The position numbers were made by a program, and so were the translations under genes. A stretch of 64,000 nt of DNA from a virus. This document shows, in pieces, positions 22,435-58,194 of this stretch. Within the stretch, counting starts at the first letter, position 1. Each line of letters begins with the position of its first letter. Under the pieces are notes generated by a model. That model worked only from the letters and a program-made list of their open reading frames with translations. It made no database searches and was not told where the DNA came from. Location: positions 1-64,000 of IMG/VR virus record IMGVR_UViG_3300031951_000093; one strand, given 5' to 3'.

Positions 22435-22480
22435 GCATTGCAGTGATCTGTTACAATAGAACACGAGTCACAGCACTAGC
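22435..22480 (+). promoter_or_regulatory. promoter box of thyX
   Basis: CATTGCAGTGATCTGTTACAATAG matches the phage promoter box (GCAGTGA-CTGTTAC). The thyX start is about 50 bases downstream. No clear TATAAT is present, so the call is weaker than for the cassettes. Confidence 0.4.
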
Positions 22481-22505
22481 CACTCAGAACCCTGCCTTCT
22501 CCCTT

Positions 22506-23231
22506 ATGGATCCACGTTTTCGCGTTGAAATCATCGCTCAAACGCCTAATCCCCAGCAGTGCATGTATGCCGCAATGCATCAGGATTATAGTGAAGGTTT
22601 TGTGTATGATGAGCGTGATAAATGGCCGGATGAAACTAAAGCTGGGGAGATCTGTGTTAAGCGATTATTGAATGGAGAACGTGGGCATTATGGAATACTG
22701 GAGCATCAGCAAATTATCCTTAATTGTGGGTACTTTCCCCATTCCGTAATGCAGCAAGCTCGGACACACAGGGTAGGCGTAAGTATGGATTGTCAGTCGA
22801 TGCGTTATACTGGAGATCGTATCTGCAGAGCTGCTAGTGGCGAATTACATCTTGAAGATGTATTCTATTTGCGGCCATTGGGTCATTATACTGACCGTCA
22901 AGGCAAAAAATATGAATACACACACAATCAGCGCGGAGAAGATCTTCATATCTGCAGCGTCGCTGCTGAACGCTATCGCAACCTAATCGAAGCCGGATAC
23001 GCTGAAGAACACGCACGCGGAATCCTTCCCTTTGATTATAGGCAGCACTTTGTAGTTAGCTTTAATGCGCGATCATTTATGCACTTCCTTGATTTGCGTG
23101 CAAAATTAGATGCTCAGCTAGAAATCAGACAGCTTTGTGATCTGATGTGGCCGCATTTCAAGGCTTGGGTGCCGCAAATTGCGGAATGGTATGAAAAGGC
23201 GCGATTGCATAAGGCACGGTTGGCGCCATAA
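22506..23231 (+). CDS. thyX: FAD-dependent thymidylate synthase
   Basis: The 241-aa protein is a ThyX enzyme, which makes dTMP from dUMP with methylene-tetrahydrofolate, FAD and NADPH. The signature R-T-H-R, then S and Q-S-x-R-Y is seen around residues 86-102, and C-terminal FMHFLDLR with QLEIRQLCDLM completes the fold. The length is normal. The ATG at 22506 is chosen over an upstream TTG-type extension that reads through the promoter. With nrdJ, tmk and dcd it forms the phage set for dTTP supply. Confidence 0.95.
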   Translation: MDPRFRVEIIAQTPNPQQCMYAAMHQDYSEGFVYDERDKWPDETKAGEICVKRLLNGERGHYGILEHQQIILNCGYFPHSVMQQARTHRVGVSMDCQSMRYTGDRICRAASGELHLEDVFYLRPLGHYTDRQGKKYEYTHNQRGEDLHICSVAAERYRNLIEAGYAEEHARGILPFDYRQHFVVSFNARSFMHFLDLRAKLDAQLEIRQLCDLMWPHFKAWVPQIAEWYEKARLHKARLAP

Positions 23232-23337: not shown

Positions 23338-23502
23338 ATGAATTCACAAGCCTTAAAAAAAGGAATCATTTGCTGGGTTTCTACCGTAACCGGCAAGACT
23401 GGGCATGGTAAACCGCTATCTCTTGAGGATGCCAATCGCCTGGCTCGCCAAGCCAACGCAAAAAATCCCCTAATTATTTACACAGTCAAAGAGGTGCAAT
23501 GA
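23338..23502 (+). CDS. small hypothetical protein (54 aa)
   Basis: A 54-aa protein with a beta-strand IICWVSTVTG and a helix LEDANRLARQANA, reminiscent of small phage proteins that pair a strand with a helix. A box GTTTCAATTTGTAACCGC lies about 100 bases upstream. The stop overlaps the Rieske gene start (ATGA), so the two are coupled. Confidence 0.55.
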   Translation: MNSQALKKGIICWVSTVTGKTGHGKPLSLEDANRLARQANAKNPLIIYTVKEVQ

Positions 23503-24143
23503 CAACTCACAAATTTAGCAACATGACTCACGCTATGCCATCAGAATTGCGTCGATTTGTTGATTTTCTTGCCGCCAACCCATCACCAGTTGATGTAGTT
23601 GAAGGCAAATTTTATATGGTGCCTTGTGTAGCGCAGCCGAAGAATGCCATGCCAAATGATCATCCTGCTTATGTTCCGCTAATCGGAACTGTGCACGAAG
23701 ATCGAGACGTGATTGGGTTTGATCCCTGGCATGTGCATGTAGACACTAGATTTATCACATATAAACGTCATTACTTAGCCTATCGTAACCTTGGTTATCC
23801 AGTTAGCCTAACCAATCATCCATGGCTGACCGAAAAATGGCCCGAAGAAGAGCTTAATCCATGGGCTTATTCAGAGCTATCAGTAAGACGCTTTAAAGCT
23901 CGCCGATCAGCACCGCCCTGGATGCCGCCAAATGCTGCTAGATGGCAACGCGATCTAGAAGACGCCTACGCTGGCGCTAGCGCCGCGTGTGGCGTCTGCC
24001 CCCACCGTCAACTCCCGCTGGCCGCTGGCCGCGACGTGGGCAATGGTGTGCGCCAATGTTCTGGTCATGGGCTGTGCTGGAATCGTGATGGGCGCATGGT
24101 GCGCCAGGTGGCATCGCAAGCTGTTCAAATTCGTTGGTGTTGA
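23499..24143 (+). CDS. Rieske-like [2Fe-2S] protein of phage type
   Basis: The 214-aa protein has a Rieske cluster motif near the C-terminus: Cys167-Pro-His169, 17 residues, then Cys187-Ser-Gly-His190, followed by G-L-C-W and a DGR-V turn, as in Rieske domains (CxH-x15-17-CxxH). The N-terminal part carries VEGKFYMVPC and DPWHVHVDTRF segments that I recall from uncharacterised phage proteins joined to a Rieske domain. No oxygenase catalytic domain is present. It may be an electron carrier or a redox-sensing protein. It is coupled to the small gene before it. Confidence 0.7.
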   Translation: MTTHKFSNMTHAMPSELRRFVDFLAANPSPVDVVEGKFYMVPCVAQPKNAMPNDHPAYVPLIGTVHEDRDVIGFDPWHVHVDTRFITYKRHYLAYRNLGYPVSLTNHPWLTEKWPEEELNPWAYSELSVRRFKARRSAPPWMPPNAARWQRDLEDAYAGASAACGVCPHRQLPLAAGRDVGNGVRQCSGHGLCWNRDGRMVRQVASQAVQIRWC

Positions 24144-24310: not shown

Positions 24311-24751
24311 TCACTCTTCCAGTGCGATCAAAGTAATCAAAACCCCCGGCAACTCACTACCAACACAATAGCGCTTGCTCGTATTACCATCTACAATATA
24401 GCTATCGTCTTTGTAAAGCACACCCGTCAAAGCATCGCTTATTCCACGCAATAACTTATCCCTGTCGGGGCGTGTCTTCATGTATTTAGGCGCATTAGGC
24501 TTCAGCCCTTTCTTGTTGAAATGTGACCTAGGTCTTTGAAATATAAAAACAGCGCTCATTGATACGGCACCTTCTATCATTGCAATATCAAGATCAATAG
24601 CTACACTTGTGACAAGATCGCGCCATTCTTCTAGTTGTTTGCATGTTTCAATCAATATAGCTCTACCTTCTTTATTTTTGCCAACATATTTCTTTGATCC
24701 TTGTGGCGCAGGATTCATCCCTCGCACTTCAAATGTGATTGCATTGGTCAC
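24311..24751 (-). CDS. RusA-family Holliday junction resolvase
   Basis: The 146-aa protein has the RusA core: RPDRDKLLRGISDALTG near residues 95-111, then the acidic YKDDSYIVD and a closing Lys-Arg strand. The paired Asp residues bind metal for cutting branched DNA. The usual KPDxDN reads RPDRDK here, a modest change. It is the last gene of the 28.3-24.3 kb minus operon and would resolve recombination intermediates made by the RecE/RecT pair or clear branches before packaging. Confidence 0.85.
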   Translation of the reverse strand: MTNAITFEVRGMNPAPQGSKKYVGKNKEGRAILIETCKQLEEWRDLVTSVAIDLDIAMIEGAVSMSAVFIFQRPRSHFNKKGLKPNAPKYMKTRPDRDKLLRGISDALTGVLYKDDSYIVDGNTSKRYCVGSELPGVLITLIALEE

Positions 24752-25748: not shown

Positions 25749-26437
25749 GGCACATCATCCTCTTTCGTGGTAGTATCTTCAACAGATCCCAGCCTTTCTT
25801 TAATAGCTGTTTCTAGCATTTCTTGCGCTAGATTTTTGTTGCGGGCGATCCATTCATAAGCCAAGGTACCCTGATGTAATAATGGTTTTTTTCCCATTGA
25901 TCCACGTAATACGCTTTCGTACATTATCTTGCCCAGTGGACCTTGCAATGGAAATTCAAGTAGTTGTTTTGTTGGTTCTATTGTTGAAATTAAAATCTTA
26001 CATTTTTCATAGTATTTGCGCCGTTCTTCTATTGTCATACTGTTTGCATTCCAGTAGGCACCAGCCGGTAGCCTGTATTCATCTGAAATGGGCATAAATT
26101 CCTCGCGCTGTGGTGATGGGTCGTGAAAAGTGTCTGGATCAGATATTCTCGTTCTCAGGTCACTTCTAAAGCCACGATTTAATACTGCTACATTATTTTG
26201 CAGTGGGTAAATATATCTAAATAGTTGCATGTGAAACGCCATGTCATCTGGTGGATTTGGATCTAGTAGCCGCTGCTTAATTGCATATTGCAAAATGAAC
26301 GGATTCAACTCTACAACCACCTTATCTGATAATTGCACATACATCTTGGCTAAAGTCGTTGTAGATAACTGCCGCATCTTCGGCAACATTTCTAATGCGC
26401 AAGCAATCAACCCGGTGAAGTCTTCTTCACTGATCAT
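25742..26437 (-). CDS. hypothetical protein (231 aa), possible replication accessory factor
   Basis: The 231-aa product is mostly helical, with an N-terminal domain (1-90) and a C-terminal helical domain that ends in an acidic tail (TTTKEDDVPW). It lies between the replication-initiator candidate and RusA, so a helicase-loading or accessory role is thinkable from position only. No motif is decisive. Confidence 0.45.
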   Translation of the reverse strand: MISEEDFTGLIACALEMLPKMRQLSTTTLAKMYVQLSDKVVVELNPFILQYAIKQRLLDPNPPDDMAFHMQLFRYIYPLQNNVAVLNRGFRSDLRTRISDPDTFHDPSPQREEFMPISDEYRLPAGAYWNANSMTIEERRKYYEKCKILISTIEPTKQLLEFPLQGPLGKIMYESVLRGSMGKKPLLHQGTLAYEWIARNKNLAQEMLETAIKERLGSVEDTTTKEDDVPW

Positions 26438-27141
26438 GTCGGGAATTGTTGTAGGATTTGACCATCAAGCAAGCATCCACCTTTATCGCCTGATCTGCCG
26501 CCATTTTGCTTGTGCCAATAGGCAACATTATGCTCGGCGCATTGATCTCTTAATGATCTAAACCAATTTATATCAGCAGGTCTTGCGTTAGGGCCGGATT
26601 CGCCGCCGCTGATAACCCAATTGATTTGGCTCATATATTCCACCGGAATAATCACTTTGCTCAACAATGGTTCAGCACTAATAAAGCGCACTTTTGCTGG
26701 AGTATAACTCAGATAATGAATTCGTTGCAGGCACAAATAACTCTGCTTTTCGCAGCTTACGCCAAGCCATACGTTATCCCATCCTTCACCCCAGTCGTCA
26801 GGCAGATGATCATGTATACGATGCGCTCTTTTTGTCAGAATTTGATATGTCAAGTGTGGCGTGCGCCTAATTATATCCCATGCTTCATCGCGCCATTTAT
26901 CCGCATCAACATGAAAAAAGTCACTCCAGCTACACGTAAAGACCTTCGCCGGATCTTTCCATTTTAATGGCTTATTAAATGTAGTTGGCGCACTTCTTGT
27001 TACAACATTAGACTTAATCCCCCATCGCCCTTCGCGTTCTGTAAACATATAACAATTATCGCAGCCTGAACTAACTTTGTTACATCCTTGCCATGGGTTC
27101 CATGTGTGATCCGTCCACGAAATGGCTGTGTTTTGACCCAT
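26434..27141 (-). CDS. phage Gp37/Gp68 (DUF5131) family protein
   Basis: The 235-aa protein begins MGQNTAISWTDHTWNPWQGC and has the C-x(7)-C-x-x-C spacing (Cys20, Cys28, Cys31) and GVSCE, AEPLL and GGESG segments of the Gp37/Gp68 family. Members resemble radical-SAM-like TIM barrels with a Cys cluster, and their substrate is unknown. The ATG at 27141 overlaps the stop of the upstream gene (TGATG). It is common beside replication genes of phages. Confidence 0.85.
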   Translation of the reverse strand: MGQNTAISWTDHTWNPWQGCNKVSSGCDNCYMFTEREGRWGIKSNVVTRSAPTTFNKPLKWKDPAKVFTCSWSDFFHVDADKWRDEAWDIIRRTPHLTYQILTKRAHRIHDHLPDDWGEGWDNVWLGVSCEKQSYLCLQRIHYLSYTPAKVRFISAEPLLSKVIIPVEYMSQINWVISGGESGPNARPADINWFRSLRDQCAEHNVAYWHKQNGGRSGDKGGCLLDGQILQQFPT

Positions 27142-28340
27142 CAAACAGCACCTTGAGAAAGTGACGTGCAATCCATCATAGCAAAAAACTCAGCCTCCTC
27201 GCGTGCCTGACGTTCTTTAAGTTTTTTTACGATTTGTGAAGCTTCGTGTGCTTTCTCTAAGACATCTTGACGACCATATCTTTGGCGTGGTTTAGATGAT
27301 CCACCGCCCATCTTAATGAAGTTATTTAGAGTAATCGACATCCAGCCTTTGCCGTTGATTCTTGCTTTTATTCCAAGGTCACACTGCTCTGATACAGCAT
27401 CTAAACCACCGTTTACAAAGTCATTGATTTTTGTTAACTCTTGAATCAAAAGAGACCATGCTTGAGGTGTTTTTTTGCCTGCTTTATGCTGCCAAAATGC
27501 TATAATTTTTTCAGAAACCGGAAGCAGCGCCGCCGGAACGTCATCGTTATTAGGGCAAAAAACGGCCGATTTTGCCTTTGAGGCCTGCTTTTTGACAGGG
27601 GCCTCTGAGGGGCCTTCTAGGGGCCTTGGCTGGCCCCAGGGTGGTATGGGCTGCTGAGGCTGTTTTTGGACGCTCAGGGGCGATTCTGGAGGGGTCTGAG
27701 GAGCTCGTGGCTCCAGAAACGATGGATCGCTGATCAGGAAGGTGGGCATGATGGGGTTTTCCACAGGGTTTTCCACAGGTTGGGGAGAAGGGGCTTTTTC
27801 CACGTGGCCGGGCGGTGTGTCGCTGACCGAAGGTCGGCGGGGCTGTTCCGAGCCGTGGGGGGGCGCAAAAGGGGGGTCTTGGTTTTTAAGTTTTGTTCTT
27901 GTTAAAGGCTTCTTGTTAGTGTCCCCCCCCATTTGGGGGAGGGGACCCCTCCCCTGTTTGGGGGATCCCCCATTTGGGGGAGGGGTCCCCCGTTTGGGGG
28001 AGGGGTGTGATCGCGGTCTGATGCGTTCCGATCGGACGTGATAAACCGTTGCAAATCCAGGCCGCTCATGTTTTTCGATCCAACCCTGATCCACTAGGAC
28101 CCGCAGGGATCTGCGAATGTCGTCACCCTTCATTCCGCACTCCTGCTCAAGCCTGGCGATCGTTGGGAACGCAGCGTCTGCGATGCCGGCATGATGCCAA
28201 AGCCAGCCGTAGACGAAGACCAATCCCTTTCTGTCTCGTGCTGCTGTTAGCAGGTCCAACGGTACCTGCACAAATGCCGATCGCGTCAGTTGATCGCGGA
28301 GGTTGCCGTCGCCAGTTGTAGACGGTTTCGATGTTTTCAT
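27141..28340 (-). CDS. winged-helix replication initiator candidate
   Basis: The 399-aa protein has an N-terminal winged-helix domain (about residues 15-105): FVQVPLDLL, then helices around TIARLEQECGMKGDDIRRSL and a wing with WIEKHERPGFATVYHV. A long Pro, Gly and Gln-rich linker follows (about 110-255) with tandem PPNGG-type units, then a conserved C-terminal domain (about 270-360) and a basic coiled tail. The plan recalls lambda O-like initiators whose gene contains the origin. Linker-coding DNA carries GC-rich palindromes (27922-28005). Its 5' leader has a tiny reading frame and a possible antisense RNA. Confidence 0.65.
   Translation of the reverse strand: MKTSKPSTTGDGNLRDQLTRSAFVQVPLDLLTAARDRKGLVFVYGWLWHHAGIADAAFPTIARLEQECGMKGDDIRRSLRVLVDQGWIEKHERPGFATVYHVRSERIRPRSHPSPKRGTPPPNGGSPKQGRGPLPQMGGDTNKKPLTRTKLKNQDPPFAPPHGSEQPRRPSVSDTPPGHVEKAPSPQPVENPVENPIMPTFLISDPSFLEPRAPQTPPESPLSVQKQPQQPIPPWGQPRPLEGPSEAPVKKQASKAKSAVFCPNNDDVPAALLPVSEKIIAFWQHKAGKKTPQAWSLLIQELTKINDFVNGGLDAVSEQCDLGIKARINGKGWMSITLNNFIKMGGGSSKPRQRYGRQDVLEKAHEASQIVKKLKERQAREEAEFFAMMDCTSLSQGAV
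27922..28005. repeat. GC-rich palindromic repeats inside the initiator gene, possible origin
   Basis: Units close to TCCCCCATTTGGGGGAGGGG recur three to four times (about 27926-27944, 27967-27985, 27987-28005, with an inverted version between). Each unit is itself a palindrome with CCCCC and GGGGG arms. They encode Pro-Pro-Asn-Gly-Gly-like units. Iterons within an initiator gene mark origins in lambdoid phages, which is the basis for suggesting an origin. Confidence 0.55.
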
Positions 28341-29288: not shown

Positions 29289-29361
29289 GGCGGCCTAGCA
29301 ATCTGGAGAATGCAGTGGCCTCATAAGCCTCCGAAGGTGGGTCCGATTCCCACGGCCGCCA
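29289..29361 (+). tRNA. tRNA with anticodon CAT (Met elongator or Ile2), atypical
   Basis: A 73-base cloverleaf: acceptor GGCGGCC/GGCCGCC is perfect, the T stem GTGGG/CCCAC is perfect, and the anticodon loop is CTCATAA. The anticodon stem has one T-T mismatch, the D stem is short, and the T loop reads TCCGATT instead of TTC. CCA is not encoded. The perfect G1-C72 pair argues against an initiator. It may decode Met, or Ile ATA if the C is modified. Confidence 0.75.
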
Positions 29362-33250: not shown

Positions 33251-33594
33251 CCGATTCACAAAACCAGCAAGATAAGCTTGCAGAATTAGAAAGAGATCTT
33301 ATGTTTGAACGTGCTCAAATTAAAGAAGAGCGCAATAAAATCAACAAAGAAGGAGAAGCATTTTTAAGGGAAATTGATAAAATGCAAAATGAGTTAGCAT
33401 CATATAAAGAAGCTTTGGTGCTTGCTGGCAGGATGGCAGATTGCGCCATTAATCTAGTTGGAGGGAGTACTTTGAATGAAGTAATTCAACCAGTAAGAAT
33501 TGATCATGTCTCAAGCGCCGCACATCAGTTGCGATTGGTTGTTGAAGCATATAATGATTGCATTATTCAAATGCACGGAACCACAAAACAATGA
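33247..33594 (+). CDS. coiled-coil hypothetical protein (115 aa)
   Basis: The N-terminal 60 residues form a strong coiled coil; the rest is helical with Ala, Val and Asn. It overlaps the tmk start by ATGA. Function unknown. Confidence 0.5.
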   Translation: MTDSQNQQDKLAELERDLMFERAQIKEERNKINKEGEAFLREIDKMQNELASYKEALVLAGRMADCAINLVGGSTLNEVIQPVRIDHVSSAAHQLRLVVEAYNDCIIQMHGTTKQ

Positions 33595-34283
33595 AAGGCT
33601 TTTTCATCACCCTAGAAGGCATCGACGGATGCGGCAAGACCACACAACTCAAGTCACTGGCTGAATGGCTGCCCACAAGTGGCCTGATGCCCCCTGGTGC
33701 CGAGTTGATCACCACGCGAGAGCCAGGCGGCACGGAGTTGGGGATGTTATTGCGAGGGCTTTTGTTGAGCCCATTGAAGGGTCAGGAGCCGAGCCGTAGG
33801 GCTGAGCTATTGTTGTATATGGCCGATCGTGCTCAACACGTGGAAAGAGTGATCATGCCAGCACTAGGGGCTGGCCATTGGGTGTTATGCGATCGTTTTA
33901 GCGCGTCAACAATTGCGTATCAGGGTTATGGAAGGGGGTGGCCGTTGAGTGATATTGAAAGGTTGAATCATTTTGCAACTACGGGTCTTAGGCCTGACCT
34001 AACCCTGTTGATAGATATTTCAGTAGATGAAGCACTAAAGCGTACAAAAAATAAGCAGCCGGATCGAATTGAAGCGGAAGGAAGAGAGTTTTTGAAGCGA
34101 GTGCGTCAAGGGTATGAAAAGCATAATGTCACAATGGTCTTTTATGATGCATACACAAACAGTGTAGATGCTTCTCGAAGTCAGACTTTATTCATAAGAA
34201 TAAACGGATTAGACTCTGTAGAATTGGTAACGCAAAAGTGTAAAGATGTGATTAGCGATCGTGTTCTGCAGTTAAAATCATGA
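33591..34283 (+). CDS. tmk: thymidylate kinase
   Basis: The 230-aa protein has the P-loop EGIDGCGKTTQ (about residues 9-19), the dTMP-site TREPGG and a DRFSASTIAYQGYGRG segment, then the LTLLIDISVDEAL strand. It phosphorylates dTMP to dTDP. The length is near that of bacterial enzymes. The ATG at 33591 overlaps the preceding stop. It works after ThyX in dTTP supply. Confidence 0.95.
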   Translation: MKGFFITLEGIDGCGKTTQLKSLAEWLPTSGLMPPGAELITTREPGGTELGMLLRGLLLSPLKGQEPSRRAELLLYMADRAQHVERVIMPALGAGHWVLCDRFSASTIAYQGYGRGWPLSDIERLNHFATTGLRPDLTLLIDISVDEALKRTKNKQPDRIEAEGREFLKRVRQGYEKHNVTMVFYDAYTNSVDASRSQTLFIRINGLDSVELVTQKCKDVISDRVLQLKS

Positions 34284-37854: not shown

Positions 37855-40167
37855 GTGTCTGATTTTCCAGCATCTGCGCCCGCCGCCAATCCGGTTTTCT
37901 GCCGTACCTATAGTCGCAAGGGACCACAAGGTCGCGAGAGCTGGCAACATGTCGTAGAGCGTAATCTGAGCGGTCTGGCGAAGCTTGGTCGCCTTAATGA
38001 TGATCAGGTTGCCCTATTGCGCAAGATGCAACTAGAGCAGAAAGCGCTACCTTCAGGCCGTTGGTTGTGGGTTGGCGGTACTGACTGGATTGATAAGCCA
38101 GAAAATGTAAGCGGTGCATACAATTGTACGTCAACGGATCTAACCGATTGGCGTGCTTTTGCGTTGATGATGGATTTAGCGATGATGGGTAGTGGAACTG
38201 GCGCCATCATTGAGCCTCACATGGTTGATATGTTGCCGGTGATTCGGAATAGGTTGAATGTAGTTGTTACAGGTATATTTGGCCAAGCGTCTTCAGATCC
38301 ACAAACTAGCGTTGAATATCACACTGTGTATCTTGATGAAGATTATACGCCAAGCATTGATGTATTAATTGAAGTTGGCGACAGCCGTAAGGGATGGGTT
38401 GACGCTTACTACACAATGTTTGAACTTGCCAGTAATGCCTCCATTTCGGCTTTATATGGAGAAAATACCCAAGTTGCCGTAAGTGTTGATATATCCAAGG
38501 TTCGTCCTTCTGGCTCGCCACTAAAAGGCTTCGGCGGCACAGCAAATCCAGTGAAGCTAAAGGATTTGTTTGTTAAAATGGCTGCGATTTTTAACAAAGC
38601 TCAAGGCAGAAAACTTACATCAGTTGAGTGTTGTTTGCTTACGGATGAAGCGGCGTTAGTTGTAGTTGCCGGCAATGTGCGTCGTAGCGCTTCAATTAAA
38701 CAATTCAGCGCAAATGATACCGAGGCAAGTATAGCAAAAGACAACCTATGGCAGCAAGATGAAGACGGCAACTGGCGCATTGATCCTGAGCGTGATGCTT
38801 TGCGCATGGCGAATCACACCCTAGTCTATCATAATTATCCAACAAGAGAAGAGATCGTAGATTCTGTCCGCAGGCAATACCTATCGGGTGAAGGTGCGAT
38901 TATGTTTGCTCCTGAAGCTATTGCAAGATCAAATCGTGATATTTTGACCGATAGGCAGATGCAAATTGATTTTATCTCAGCTTATTGTGATCACAAGCAA
39001 AGTGGTGCTGAGATGATTAAGCAGTTGGATCCTGATTGCGTGGAAGATAGTGATAAGCTAGAACATAGAATGGGCAGGTATGGGATTAACCCATGCGGCG
39101 AAATTCAAGGTAAAAACTTTCACTGCAATCTAGCAGAAGTGCATCTAAACCAGCTATTACCATCCGATCGGCTGGGGCAACAATCAGCATTCACCGCCGC
39201 TGCTTTATCTGTTGCGGCATTGTTACATCATAAGTTTCAGGAGCCACGTTATCAGTACAGCAGAGATCTTGATCCTATCGTTGGTGTAAGTTTCACGGGA
39301 TTGTTTGACTTTTTTGTTGAGGCATTTGGTGTGCCATGGCTTGAATGGTGGACAGAGGGAAGGCCTAATAATTATGTGGGGATTGCATATAAAGAAGCTG
39401 AGGCGGCTTATTTAAGAGAATGGCGTGAAATTGTAGAAGATGCTGTTCGGAAGTATTGCGATGATCATGGGCTGAAGTGTCCTAATCGCATGACGACATG
39501 TCAACCGGCCGGGACCAAGAGTCTTCTTACTGGTGCGTCACCAGGCTGGCATCCGCCGAAGGCGCAGCGCTTCATCCGTCGCATCACCTTCCGCAGGGAT
39601 GATCCCGTGGCCCTGGCCTGCCTCGATTATGGCTACACCATTGTGCCTAGCCAGAGCGACAAGGATGAGCAGGGCCGCCTATTGGATGATCCCTTTGATC
39701 CGCGCTGTACCGAGTGGCTCGTGGAGATCCCCACGGAAGTGAGCTGGGCCAACCTGCCGGGAGCGGATCAGATCAGAATTGATCAATTCTCAGCCCTGGC
39801 TCAGTTTGACTTCTACATGCAAGTACAGACGCACTATACAAGGCATAACACATCTGCCACGATTGAGTTTAGGGAGCATGAAATTGAGCCCTTGGCTGAT
39901 AAGATTCATGATGCAATCGTGAATCATAAAGGCTACATTTCCGCCGCTTTACTGGCTCGCTTTGATGCAAACGAAACATTCCCCCGCCTGCCTTTTGAAC
40001 CGATCGACAAGGCAACATACGAGCGCCTTCATGAAGAAGTGTTACAACGTCGCAAAGGGGATGACTTTTTTGCGCTGCTTCAGGCCTATGATAGCGGGAG
40101 TTTAGTGGAGGCTGGCCCTGCAGGATGTGACTCGGATAAGTGCTTGCTGCCGCAGGCTAAAAAGTAA
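37855..40167 (+). CDS. nrdJ: monomeric class II ribonucleotide reductase (B12-dependent)
   Basis: The 770-aa protein (GTG start) is an adenosylcobalamin-dependent ribonucleoside-triphosphate reductase of the monomeric type. It has the first redox Cys in SGAYNCTST, the radical site NPCGEI followed by HCNLAEV, a central VVAGNVRRSA and CQPAGTKSLLTGASPG loops. A C-terminal Cys pair (Cys758, Cys763) recharges the active site. It reduces NTPs to dNTPs without a separate radical subunit, using host cobalamin. The 3' third is more GC-rich. It stands before a run of small genes and supplies DNA synthesis with ThyX, Tmk and Dcd. Confidence 0.95.
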   Translation: MSDFPASAPAANPVFCRTYSRKGPQGRESWQHVVERNLSGLAKLGRLNDDQVALLRKMQLEQKALPSGRWLWVGGTDWIDKPENVSGAYNCTSTDLTDWRAFALMMDLAMMGSGTGAIIEPHMVDMLPVIRNRLNVVVTGIFGQASSDPQTSVEYHTVYLDEDYTPSIDVLIEVGDSRKGWVDAYYTMFELASNASISALYGENTQVAVSVDISKVRPSGSPLKGFGGTANPVKLKDLFVKMAAIFNKAQGRKLTSVECCLLTDEAALVVVAGNVRRSASIKQFSANDTEASIAKDNLWQQDEDGNWRIDPERDALRMANHTLVYHNYPTREEIVDSVRRQYLSGEGAIMFAPEAIARSNRDILTDRQMQIDFISAYCDHKQSGAEMIKQLDPDCVEDSDKLEHRMGRYGINPCGEIQGKNFHCNLAEVHLNQLLPSDRLGQQSAFTAAALSVAALLHHKFQEPRYQYSRDLDPIVGVSFTGLFDFFVEAFGVPWLEWWTEGRPNNYVGIAYKEAEAAYLREWREIVEDAVRKYCDDHGLKCPNRMTTCQPAGTKSLLTGASPGWHPPKAQRFIRRITFRRDDPVALACLDYGYTIVPSQSDKDEQGRLLDDPFDPRCTEWLVEIPTEVSWANLPGADQIRIDQFSALAQFDFYMQVQTHYTRHNTSATIEFREHEIEPLADKIHDAIVNHKGYISAALLARFDANETFPRLPFEPIDKATYERLHEEVLQRRKGDDFFALLQAYDSGSLVEAGPAGCDSDKCLLPQAKK

Positions 40168-45598: not shown

Positions 45599-45671
45599 GC
45601 CGATTTAGCTCAGTTGGTAGAGCAGCGCTTTTGTAAGGCGCTTGTCGCCGGTTCGATTCCGGCAATCGGCT
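45599..45671 (+). tRNA. tRNA-Thr (anticodon TGT)
   Basis: A regular 73-base cloverleaf: acceptor GCCGATT/AATCGGC, D arm GCTCAGTTGGTAGAGC, anticodon loop TTTGTAA and T arm CCGGTTCGATTCCGG. CCA is not encoded. It could supply Thr ACA codons in phage genes. Confidence 0.95.
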
Positions 45672-57828: not shown

Positions 57829-57891
57829 TTGGTTTGTTTCAGGATGCACAATCTCGCGCATCCTAAATTCCACCTATTAACAAAAGGTTTT

Positions 57892-58194
57892 ATGCCTGAT
57901 TCTGCATTCCTGCCGGTTGGCAATGGCAATGGCAATGGCTATGGCGATGGCTATGGCGATGGCAATGGTAATGGCGATGGCTATGGCTATGGCAATGGCT
58001 ATGGCAATGGCTATGGCTATGGCTATGGCTATGGCGATGGATATGGCAATGGCTATGGCTATGGCTATGGCTATGGCGATGGATATGGCTATGGCTATGG
58101 CTATGGATATGGCAATGGCTATGGCGATAGCAATGGCTATGGCTATGGCTATGGCGATGGCTATGGAACACCATCTATTAGGATTAGAAAATGA
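57892..58194 (+). CDS. Gly-Tyr-Asn-Asp repeat protein
   Basis: The 100-aa protein is MPDSAFLPV followed by about 40 dipeptide units Gly-Tyr, Gly-Asn or Gly-Asp and a short TPSIRIRK tail. It is low complexity and without a fold. Such proteins are seen next to DUF6948 in other phages. Sticky surface, phase-separating or metal-binding roles are speculation. Its stop overlaps the next start. Confidence 0.65.
   Translation: MPDSAFLPVGNGNGNGYGDGYGDGNGNGDGYGYGNGYGNGYGYGYGYGDGYGNGYGYGYGYGDGYGYGYGYGYGNGYGDSNGYGYGYGDGYGTPSIRIRK
57919..58167 (+). repeat. hexanucleotide array (GGCNATGGNNAT-type)
   Basis: About 40 units of GGC or GGA followed by TAT, AAT or GAT run without interruption. On the opposite strand the same array reads as a false His-Ser repeat frame. 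Slippage would change length in steps that keep the frame. Confidence 0.9.

Follow-up and report, generated by a model that had tools for sequence, protein, structure and literature searches.

A gene in a phage genome encodes what is very likely a Rieske-type [2Fe-2S] protein whose architecture is new: the cluster-binding subdomain is set after a phage-specific domain that carries a second group of invariant residues. We predict that it serves DNA metabolism in a two-site redox mode, a proposal that, taken as a whole, we hold with slightly less than even confidence. The gene lies in a 64,000-nucleotide stretch of viral DNA (hereafter the window), in which the following features are relevant:

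22443 to 23231, plus strand: thyX, FAD-dependent thymidylate synthase (PF02511, E 9.6e-43)
23338 to 23502, plus strand: 54-aa ORF, downstream of thyX, overlapping the start of the Rieske gene by ATGA
23499 to 24143, plus strand: gene for the Rieske-type protein, 214 aa from ATG; conserved protein at approximately 23523 to 24116
23499 to 23522, plus strand: residues 1 to 8 (beginning MTTHKFS), delimited by comparison with locus L002
23604 to 23918, plus strand: N-terminal beta domain without structural match, residues ~36 to 140 (high pLDDT in AlphaFold2; no match in PDB or BFVD)
23694 to 23753, plus strand: codons of H66, D68, H78, H80, D82, R84 and F85, invariant; possible second metal or active site
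23982 to 24110, plus strand: Rieske cluster-binding subdomain, residues 162 to 204 (Pfam match; Foldseek on the L113 model)
23997 to 24005, plus strand: C167-P168-H169, first ligand pair
24057 to 24068, plus strand: C187-S-G-H190, second ligand pair
24117 to 24143, plus strand: C-terminal tail QAVQIRWC and stop, past the end of the L002 protein
24311 to 24751, minus strand: RusA Holliday-junction endonuclease (PF05866), convergent neighbour of the Rieske gene

The gene and its edges

We judged the ORF at 23499-24143 to be real. Comparison with the corresponding gene of L002 gave a dN of 0.027 and a dS of 0.099, values consistent with a constrained coding gene. The same comparison showed that the first 8 and last 8 residues of the window protein are products of indels at the gene edges, so the conserved protein comprises approximately residues 9-206. 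Relative to L002, 335 bp (L002:7661-7995) are absent from the window at 23518-23520. L002 carries a 121-aa gene at this stretch which opens with MTTHKFS, the first residues of the window protein, and from this alignment the window start is best read as a fusion relic, with the first codons of the lost 121-aa gene joined in frame to the Rieske gene. The L002 alignment ends at ~24115, and the C-terminal tail of the window protein stems from a second junction there. The 121-aa gene of L002 encodes two CxxCxGxG-type motifs (DnaJ-like zinc repeats). The Rieske gene had been described in an earlier note on this DNA as coupled to a 54-aa gene and as following thyX, and the ATGA overlap at its start agrees with this; a stretch 47% similar to the 54-aa ORF is encoded in the locus L015.

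Elsewhere in the window, a class II (B12-dependent) ribonucleotide reductase-like gene (37855-40167) and a thymidylate kinase gene (33558-34283), taken together with thyX, constitute a phage set for supplying dTTP. The window also contains genes for tRNA-Met (CAT, 29289-29361) and tRNA-Thr (TGT, 45599-45671), and an ORF at 57829-58194 that encodes a low-complexity Gly/Asn/Tyr/Asp repeat (GNGNGYGDGYG...).

A Rieske-type motif supported by homology

The window protein contains C167-P-H169 and, after 17 residues, C187-S-G-H190, followed by G191 and W194, exactly the pattern of Cys-x-His, 17 residues and Cys-x-x-His with flanking Gly and Trp that was first reported for it. The ligand spacing by itself is at chance level, as 0.65 matches to the loose motif C-x-H-x13-17-C-x-x-H are expected per window from shuffled ORFs (the stricter CPH...C[PSNA]xHG occurs once in the window vs a mean of 0.0 in shuffles), and homology decides. 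The Pfam Rieske family PF00355 scores 26.2 bits over residues 162-204 (cut-off 20.3 bits; E 7.5e-6), a match that spans only positions 38-79 of the 88 in the profile, and it was also matched in 72 of 80 relatives (E<=0.01). This score, the matching relatives and the retention of the ligands in independently found relatives (see below) together indicate more than chance. When a profile of the 80 relatives was searched against PDB, Rieske proteins came first (the methanesulfonate monooxygenase ferredoxin subunit, SxtDIOX, SxtT and DdmC), over the C-terminal stretch only and with E-values of 1.5e-6 to 1.8e-5. The profile search suggested in the earlier note thus agrees with its Rieske assignment, and we consider a Rieske-type [2Fe-2S] site in the window protein highly probable.

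A Rieske subdomain without the rest of the fold

Structures were modelled with AlphaFold2 from an 80-sequence alignment for the window protein (pLDDT 89.1, pTM 0.85) and for L113, a compact member of the family (pLDDT 94.1, pTM 0.88). Foldseek searches of the models against PDB and BFVD gave no match at E<=0.001. The Rieske assignment therefore depends on a short subdomain that might alternatively be a zinc ribbon. The best PDB matches to the L113 model were mostly Rieske proteins, many of them superposing at 1.0-1.5 A over ~31 residues (Foldseek probability <=0.84), and a zinc-finger model was weakly matched by two of the 80 relatives (best E 8.3e-5), Rieske matches being both commoner and better. 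The match to known structures extends over ~31-40 residues only, those of the Rieske cluster-binding subdomain, and a full Rieske fold with its base beta domain is absent. A search of the N-terminal domain alone against PDB sequences returned only chance matches to ribosomal S10, and Foldseek found no nuclease fold. As the Foldseek and PDB profile matches are confined to the cluster subdomain and the N-terminal domain is unmatched, the models indicate a Rieske cluster-binding subdomain without the remainder of the Rieske fold, and the original description of the N-terminal domain as phage-specific is supported.

The window protein shares with Rieske proteins of PF00355, including Rieske ferredoxins (toluene-4-monooxygenase ferredoxin, CarAc and methanesulfonate monooxygenase ferredoxin) the CPH...CPxHG motif and the aromatic residue that follows it. 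Unlike PF00355 proteins in general, it carries a different N-terminal domain in place of the rest of the fold. The closest cluster subdomains are those of Rieske non-heme iron oxygenases (SxtT/GxtA, DdmC, guaiacol O-demethylase and NdmA; 42% over 31 residues for the L113 model), and the invariant His/Asp residues of the phage protein could bind a second metal. However, the phage protein lacks their large C-terminal catalytic domain, its domain order is reversed and its total length is ~160-215 aa. The window protein stops 24 aa past H190, leaving no 2-His-1-carboxylate C-terminal domain, and it has no whole-length structural match. Its description as a Rieske protein without an oxygenase domain therefore stands as far as the canonical catalytic domain is concerned, which was absent by Pfam, PDB profile and Foldseek. 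The Rieske protein of cytochrome bc1/b6f has disulphide cysteines (CTHLGC, CPCHGS) and a membrane anchor, whereas the window protein has no Cys at 172 or 189 and no hydrophobic anchor was seen in its sequence.

Two residue sets that predict each other

By profile match, the window protein belongs to phrog_10072, a large uncharacterised phage family (PHROGs: function unknown), which matches residues 36-201 (E 5.8e-10) and was matched by all 80 relatives scanned. The residues H66, D68, H78, H80, D82, R84 and F85 are invariant in alignments A2 and A3, compiled from sequences found by a C-terminal scan or by similarity, and also in L186 and L187, two relatives that were found by profile rather than by pattern and retain both residue sets. 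The pattern CPHR-x16-CxGHG occurs in 21 stretches of IMG/VR, of which three (L013, L024 and L025) are chance matches and two come from contigs that were already represented; the remainder, so far as the available sequence goes, share the N-terminal domain with the window protein. In the phages that this motif scan reached, the N-terminal H-x-D...H-x-H-x-D-x-R-F is retained.

For the reverse scan we used the N-terminal residues alone (P-x5-H-x-D-x8/9-H-x-H-x-D-x-R-F), which gave 118 viral ORFs. A downstream CxH...CxxH was present in 113 of these by regular expression, and the other five are two ORFs with the four ligands at unusual spacing (L073 and L129), one cut by the end of the locus (L111) and two truncated Leptospira-type ORFs (L068 and L090). 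Loss of the four ligands among homologues, which the earlier note had named as evidence against a Rieske cluster, was looked for here and not encountered. Since the N-terminal scan yields the ligands and the motif scan yields the N-terminal residues, each set predicts the other without ascertainment. The spacer between ligand pairs among the 139 sequences kept was 13 (33 sequences), 16 (53), 17 (51), 18 (1) or 19 (1) residues, and the family sequences form 107 clusters at 75% identity. A genome scan with the N-terminal pattern gave 20 matches, including four chance matches (L168, L172, L173 and L178) and three others without the motif in which the reading frame or the locus stops early. A tblastn search of six family members and variants against 50,697 phage records found no homologue, the three matches of one query having E-values of only 7-9.

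Two variants of the C-terminal region were observed. A phage clade (L044, L045, L047, L051, L055, L067, L085 and relatives) has an extra C-x-H before the motif (CIHKGKCPHRG), giving a doubled ligand-like pattern. In L129 (5636 onward) the loop between the ligand pairs is much shortened (CPHKRMPILNGVCSGH) and the C-terminal extension is long.

In the models, H66, D68, H78, H80, D82 and R84 lie in, or immediately after, two consecutive strands, and their alternate spacing along these strands probably places them on one face of a hairpin, where they may form a second metal site or an active site.

Neighbouring genes in phages and bacteria

The recurrent neighbours of the family are genes for DNA damage, replication, recombination and methylation. 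Among the immediate neighbours in phages, those with a Pfam match are for the most part DNA methylases, SSB, RecT, YqaJ, DnaN, RusA, ParB and dUTPase, and a RusA gene also adjoins two Leptospira homologues. No reductase family was found among the immediate neighbours of family members. The DNA-related phage neighbours fit a role with DNA, although phage early regions are generally rich in such genes. A DUF5131 gene (phage Gp37/Gp68 family) lies at 26434-27171 on the minus strand of the window, and Leptospira phage-plasmids and L123 likewise carry relatives of it close to the Rieske gene.

All 11 non-prophage Bacteroidota copies (L163-L167, L169, L174, L176, L177, L181 and L187, comprising Mucilaginibacter, profile-reached relatives and one Dyadobacter) adjoin SOS or translesion genes (SRAP, DinB/UmuC, ImuA/B, DnaE2 or AlkB), lying inside or beside cassettes of the ImuA-ImuB-DnaE2 type or of DinB/UmuC with SRAP. 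Left out of this count were two prophage-like Dyadobacter copies (L170 and L171), a truncated Arcicella copy (L179) and one in an ambiguous setting (L162). SRAP is near the copies of L164, L165, L166, L176 and L167, and DinB with DnaE near those of L164, L166 and L176. ImuA/ImuB are near L163, L169, L174 and L177, with DnaE2 as well in three of the four; DnaE is near L181 and L187, and AlkB near L163 and L174. UmuC- and UmuD-like genes are adjacent in L167, in which the Rieske ORF is broken. ImuA, and UmuC/UmuD in L167, were assigned by eye, the latter with support from a DinB tblastn match. In L166 and L176 the SRAP gene runs 1 nt into the start of the Rieske gene; in L181 and L187 a 77-aa ORF stands between DnaE2 and the Rieske gene, all three in a row. 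As a control, 20 evenly spaced 8-kb stretches of two Mucilaginibacter genomes were compared with these proteins, and no match occurred in any of them.

The eight Mucilaginibacter copies in our tree form a single supported clade nested among phage copies. This suggests that they probably derive from one acquisition, kept with two different cassette types, so the 11 copies do not represent 11 independent events.

A predicted redox protein of DNA metabolism

We propose that the Rieske cluster of the C-terminal subdomain would hand electrons to a second metal, held by the invariant His/Asp residues on the hairpin of the N-terminal domain, in a small redox enzyme that would act on nucleic acid or nucleotides, and that a phage copy has apparently been taken into SOS/translesion cassettes in Bacteroidota. 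A role in DNA metabolism seems to us moderately likely; that the protein is a two-site redox enzyme is a more tentative suggestion. A specific form of the proposal is a miniature Rieske oxygenase on nucleic acid, a DNA-base dealkylase or hydroxylase whose cluster feeds an iron site formed by the N-terminal His/Asp residues, which we think improbable as it stands.

The metal site might instead be structural, whether [2Fe-2S] or the zinc of a ribbon, and the H/D-rich N-terminal domain a hydrolytic metal-dependent nuclease or phosphoesterase, or a mere binder of nucleic acid. The strict invariance of the His/Asp set and the DNA-processing neighbours would suit such a protein, as would a basic R-x-K-C-x-R segment that precedes the Rieske part and the weak zinc-finger matches of two relatives. 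There is also a precedent in Cas4, a nuclease that acts on DNA and contains a [2Fe-2S] cluster (PMC4176176). Against this, Rieske proteins and not zinc ribbons head the matches by both sequence and structure, and Foldseek gave no nuclease fold; we regard this reading as rather unlikely.

A sensor of redox state, oxygen or NO that uses the state of the Rieske cluster to control phage development or the SOS cassette would account for a small protein without a reductase among its neighbours and for the association with SOS-type cassettes. However, no DNA-binding regulator domain was recognised in any of the 80 relatives and the invariant His/Asp set suggests catalysis, which makes a sensor a distinctly improbable alternative.

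The portal protein of the window phage is nearest to those of Synechococcus siphophages (~35% identity), which makes a cyanobacterial host likely and agrees with the photosynthetic host proposed in the earlier note. Its functional proposal, that of a soluble Rieske protein carrying electrons to ThyX or else tapping or sensing the electron flow of photosynthesis, could draw on this relationship and on the adjoining thyX, but was rejected as very remote, because thyX is near the Rieske gene in near-identical phages only and the family is also present in Leptospira plasmids carrying phage genes, in Bacteroidota and in other bacteria, and among 386 cyanobacterial genomes only in the one that served as the search centre.

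Discussion

Rieske sites are familiar from electron carriers and from ring- or N-demethylating oxygenases, and to our knowledge they are not known from phage DNA metabolism or from bacterial mutasomes. Our literature searches on phage Rieske proteins, Leptospira phages, AMGs and SOS with Rieske found no description of the family. DnaE2/PolY modules with SRAP-like proteins are the subject of a 2026 survey, the main text of which contains no Rieske protein (PMC12926913). The family is already catalogued, unnamed, as phrog_10072, an entry that does not mention a Rieske site; what is new is the architecture of a known metal site in an unexpected setting.

AlkB and TET proteins work with 2-oxoglutarate. 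If the oxygenase form of our proposal were true, a phage Rieske oxygenase on DNA, adopted by bacterial SOS cassettes, would be the Rieske counterpart of AlkB/TET. The two residue sets kept together, the fold unmatched outside the cluster subdomain and the copies in SOS cassettes make a testable case for redox chemistry in the handling of DNA damage, and phrog_10072 gains its first functional hypothesis.
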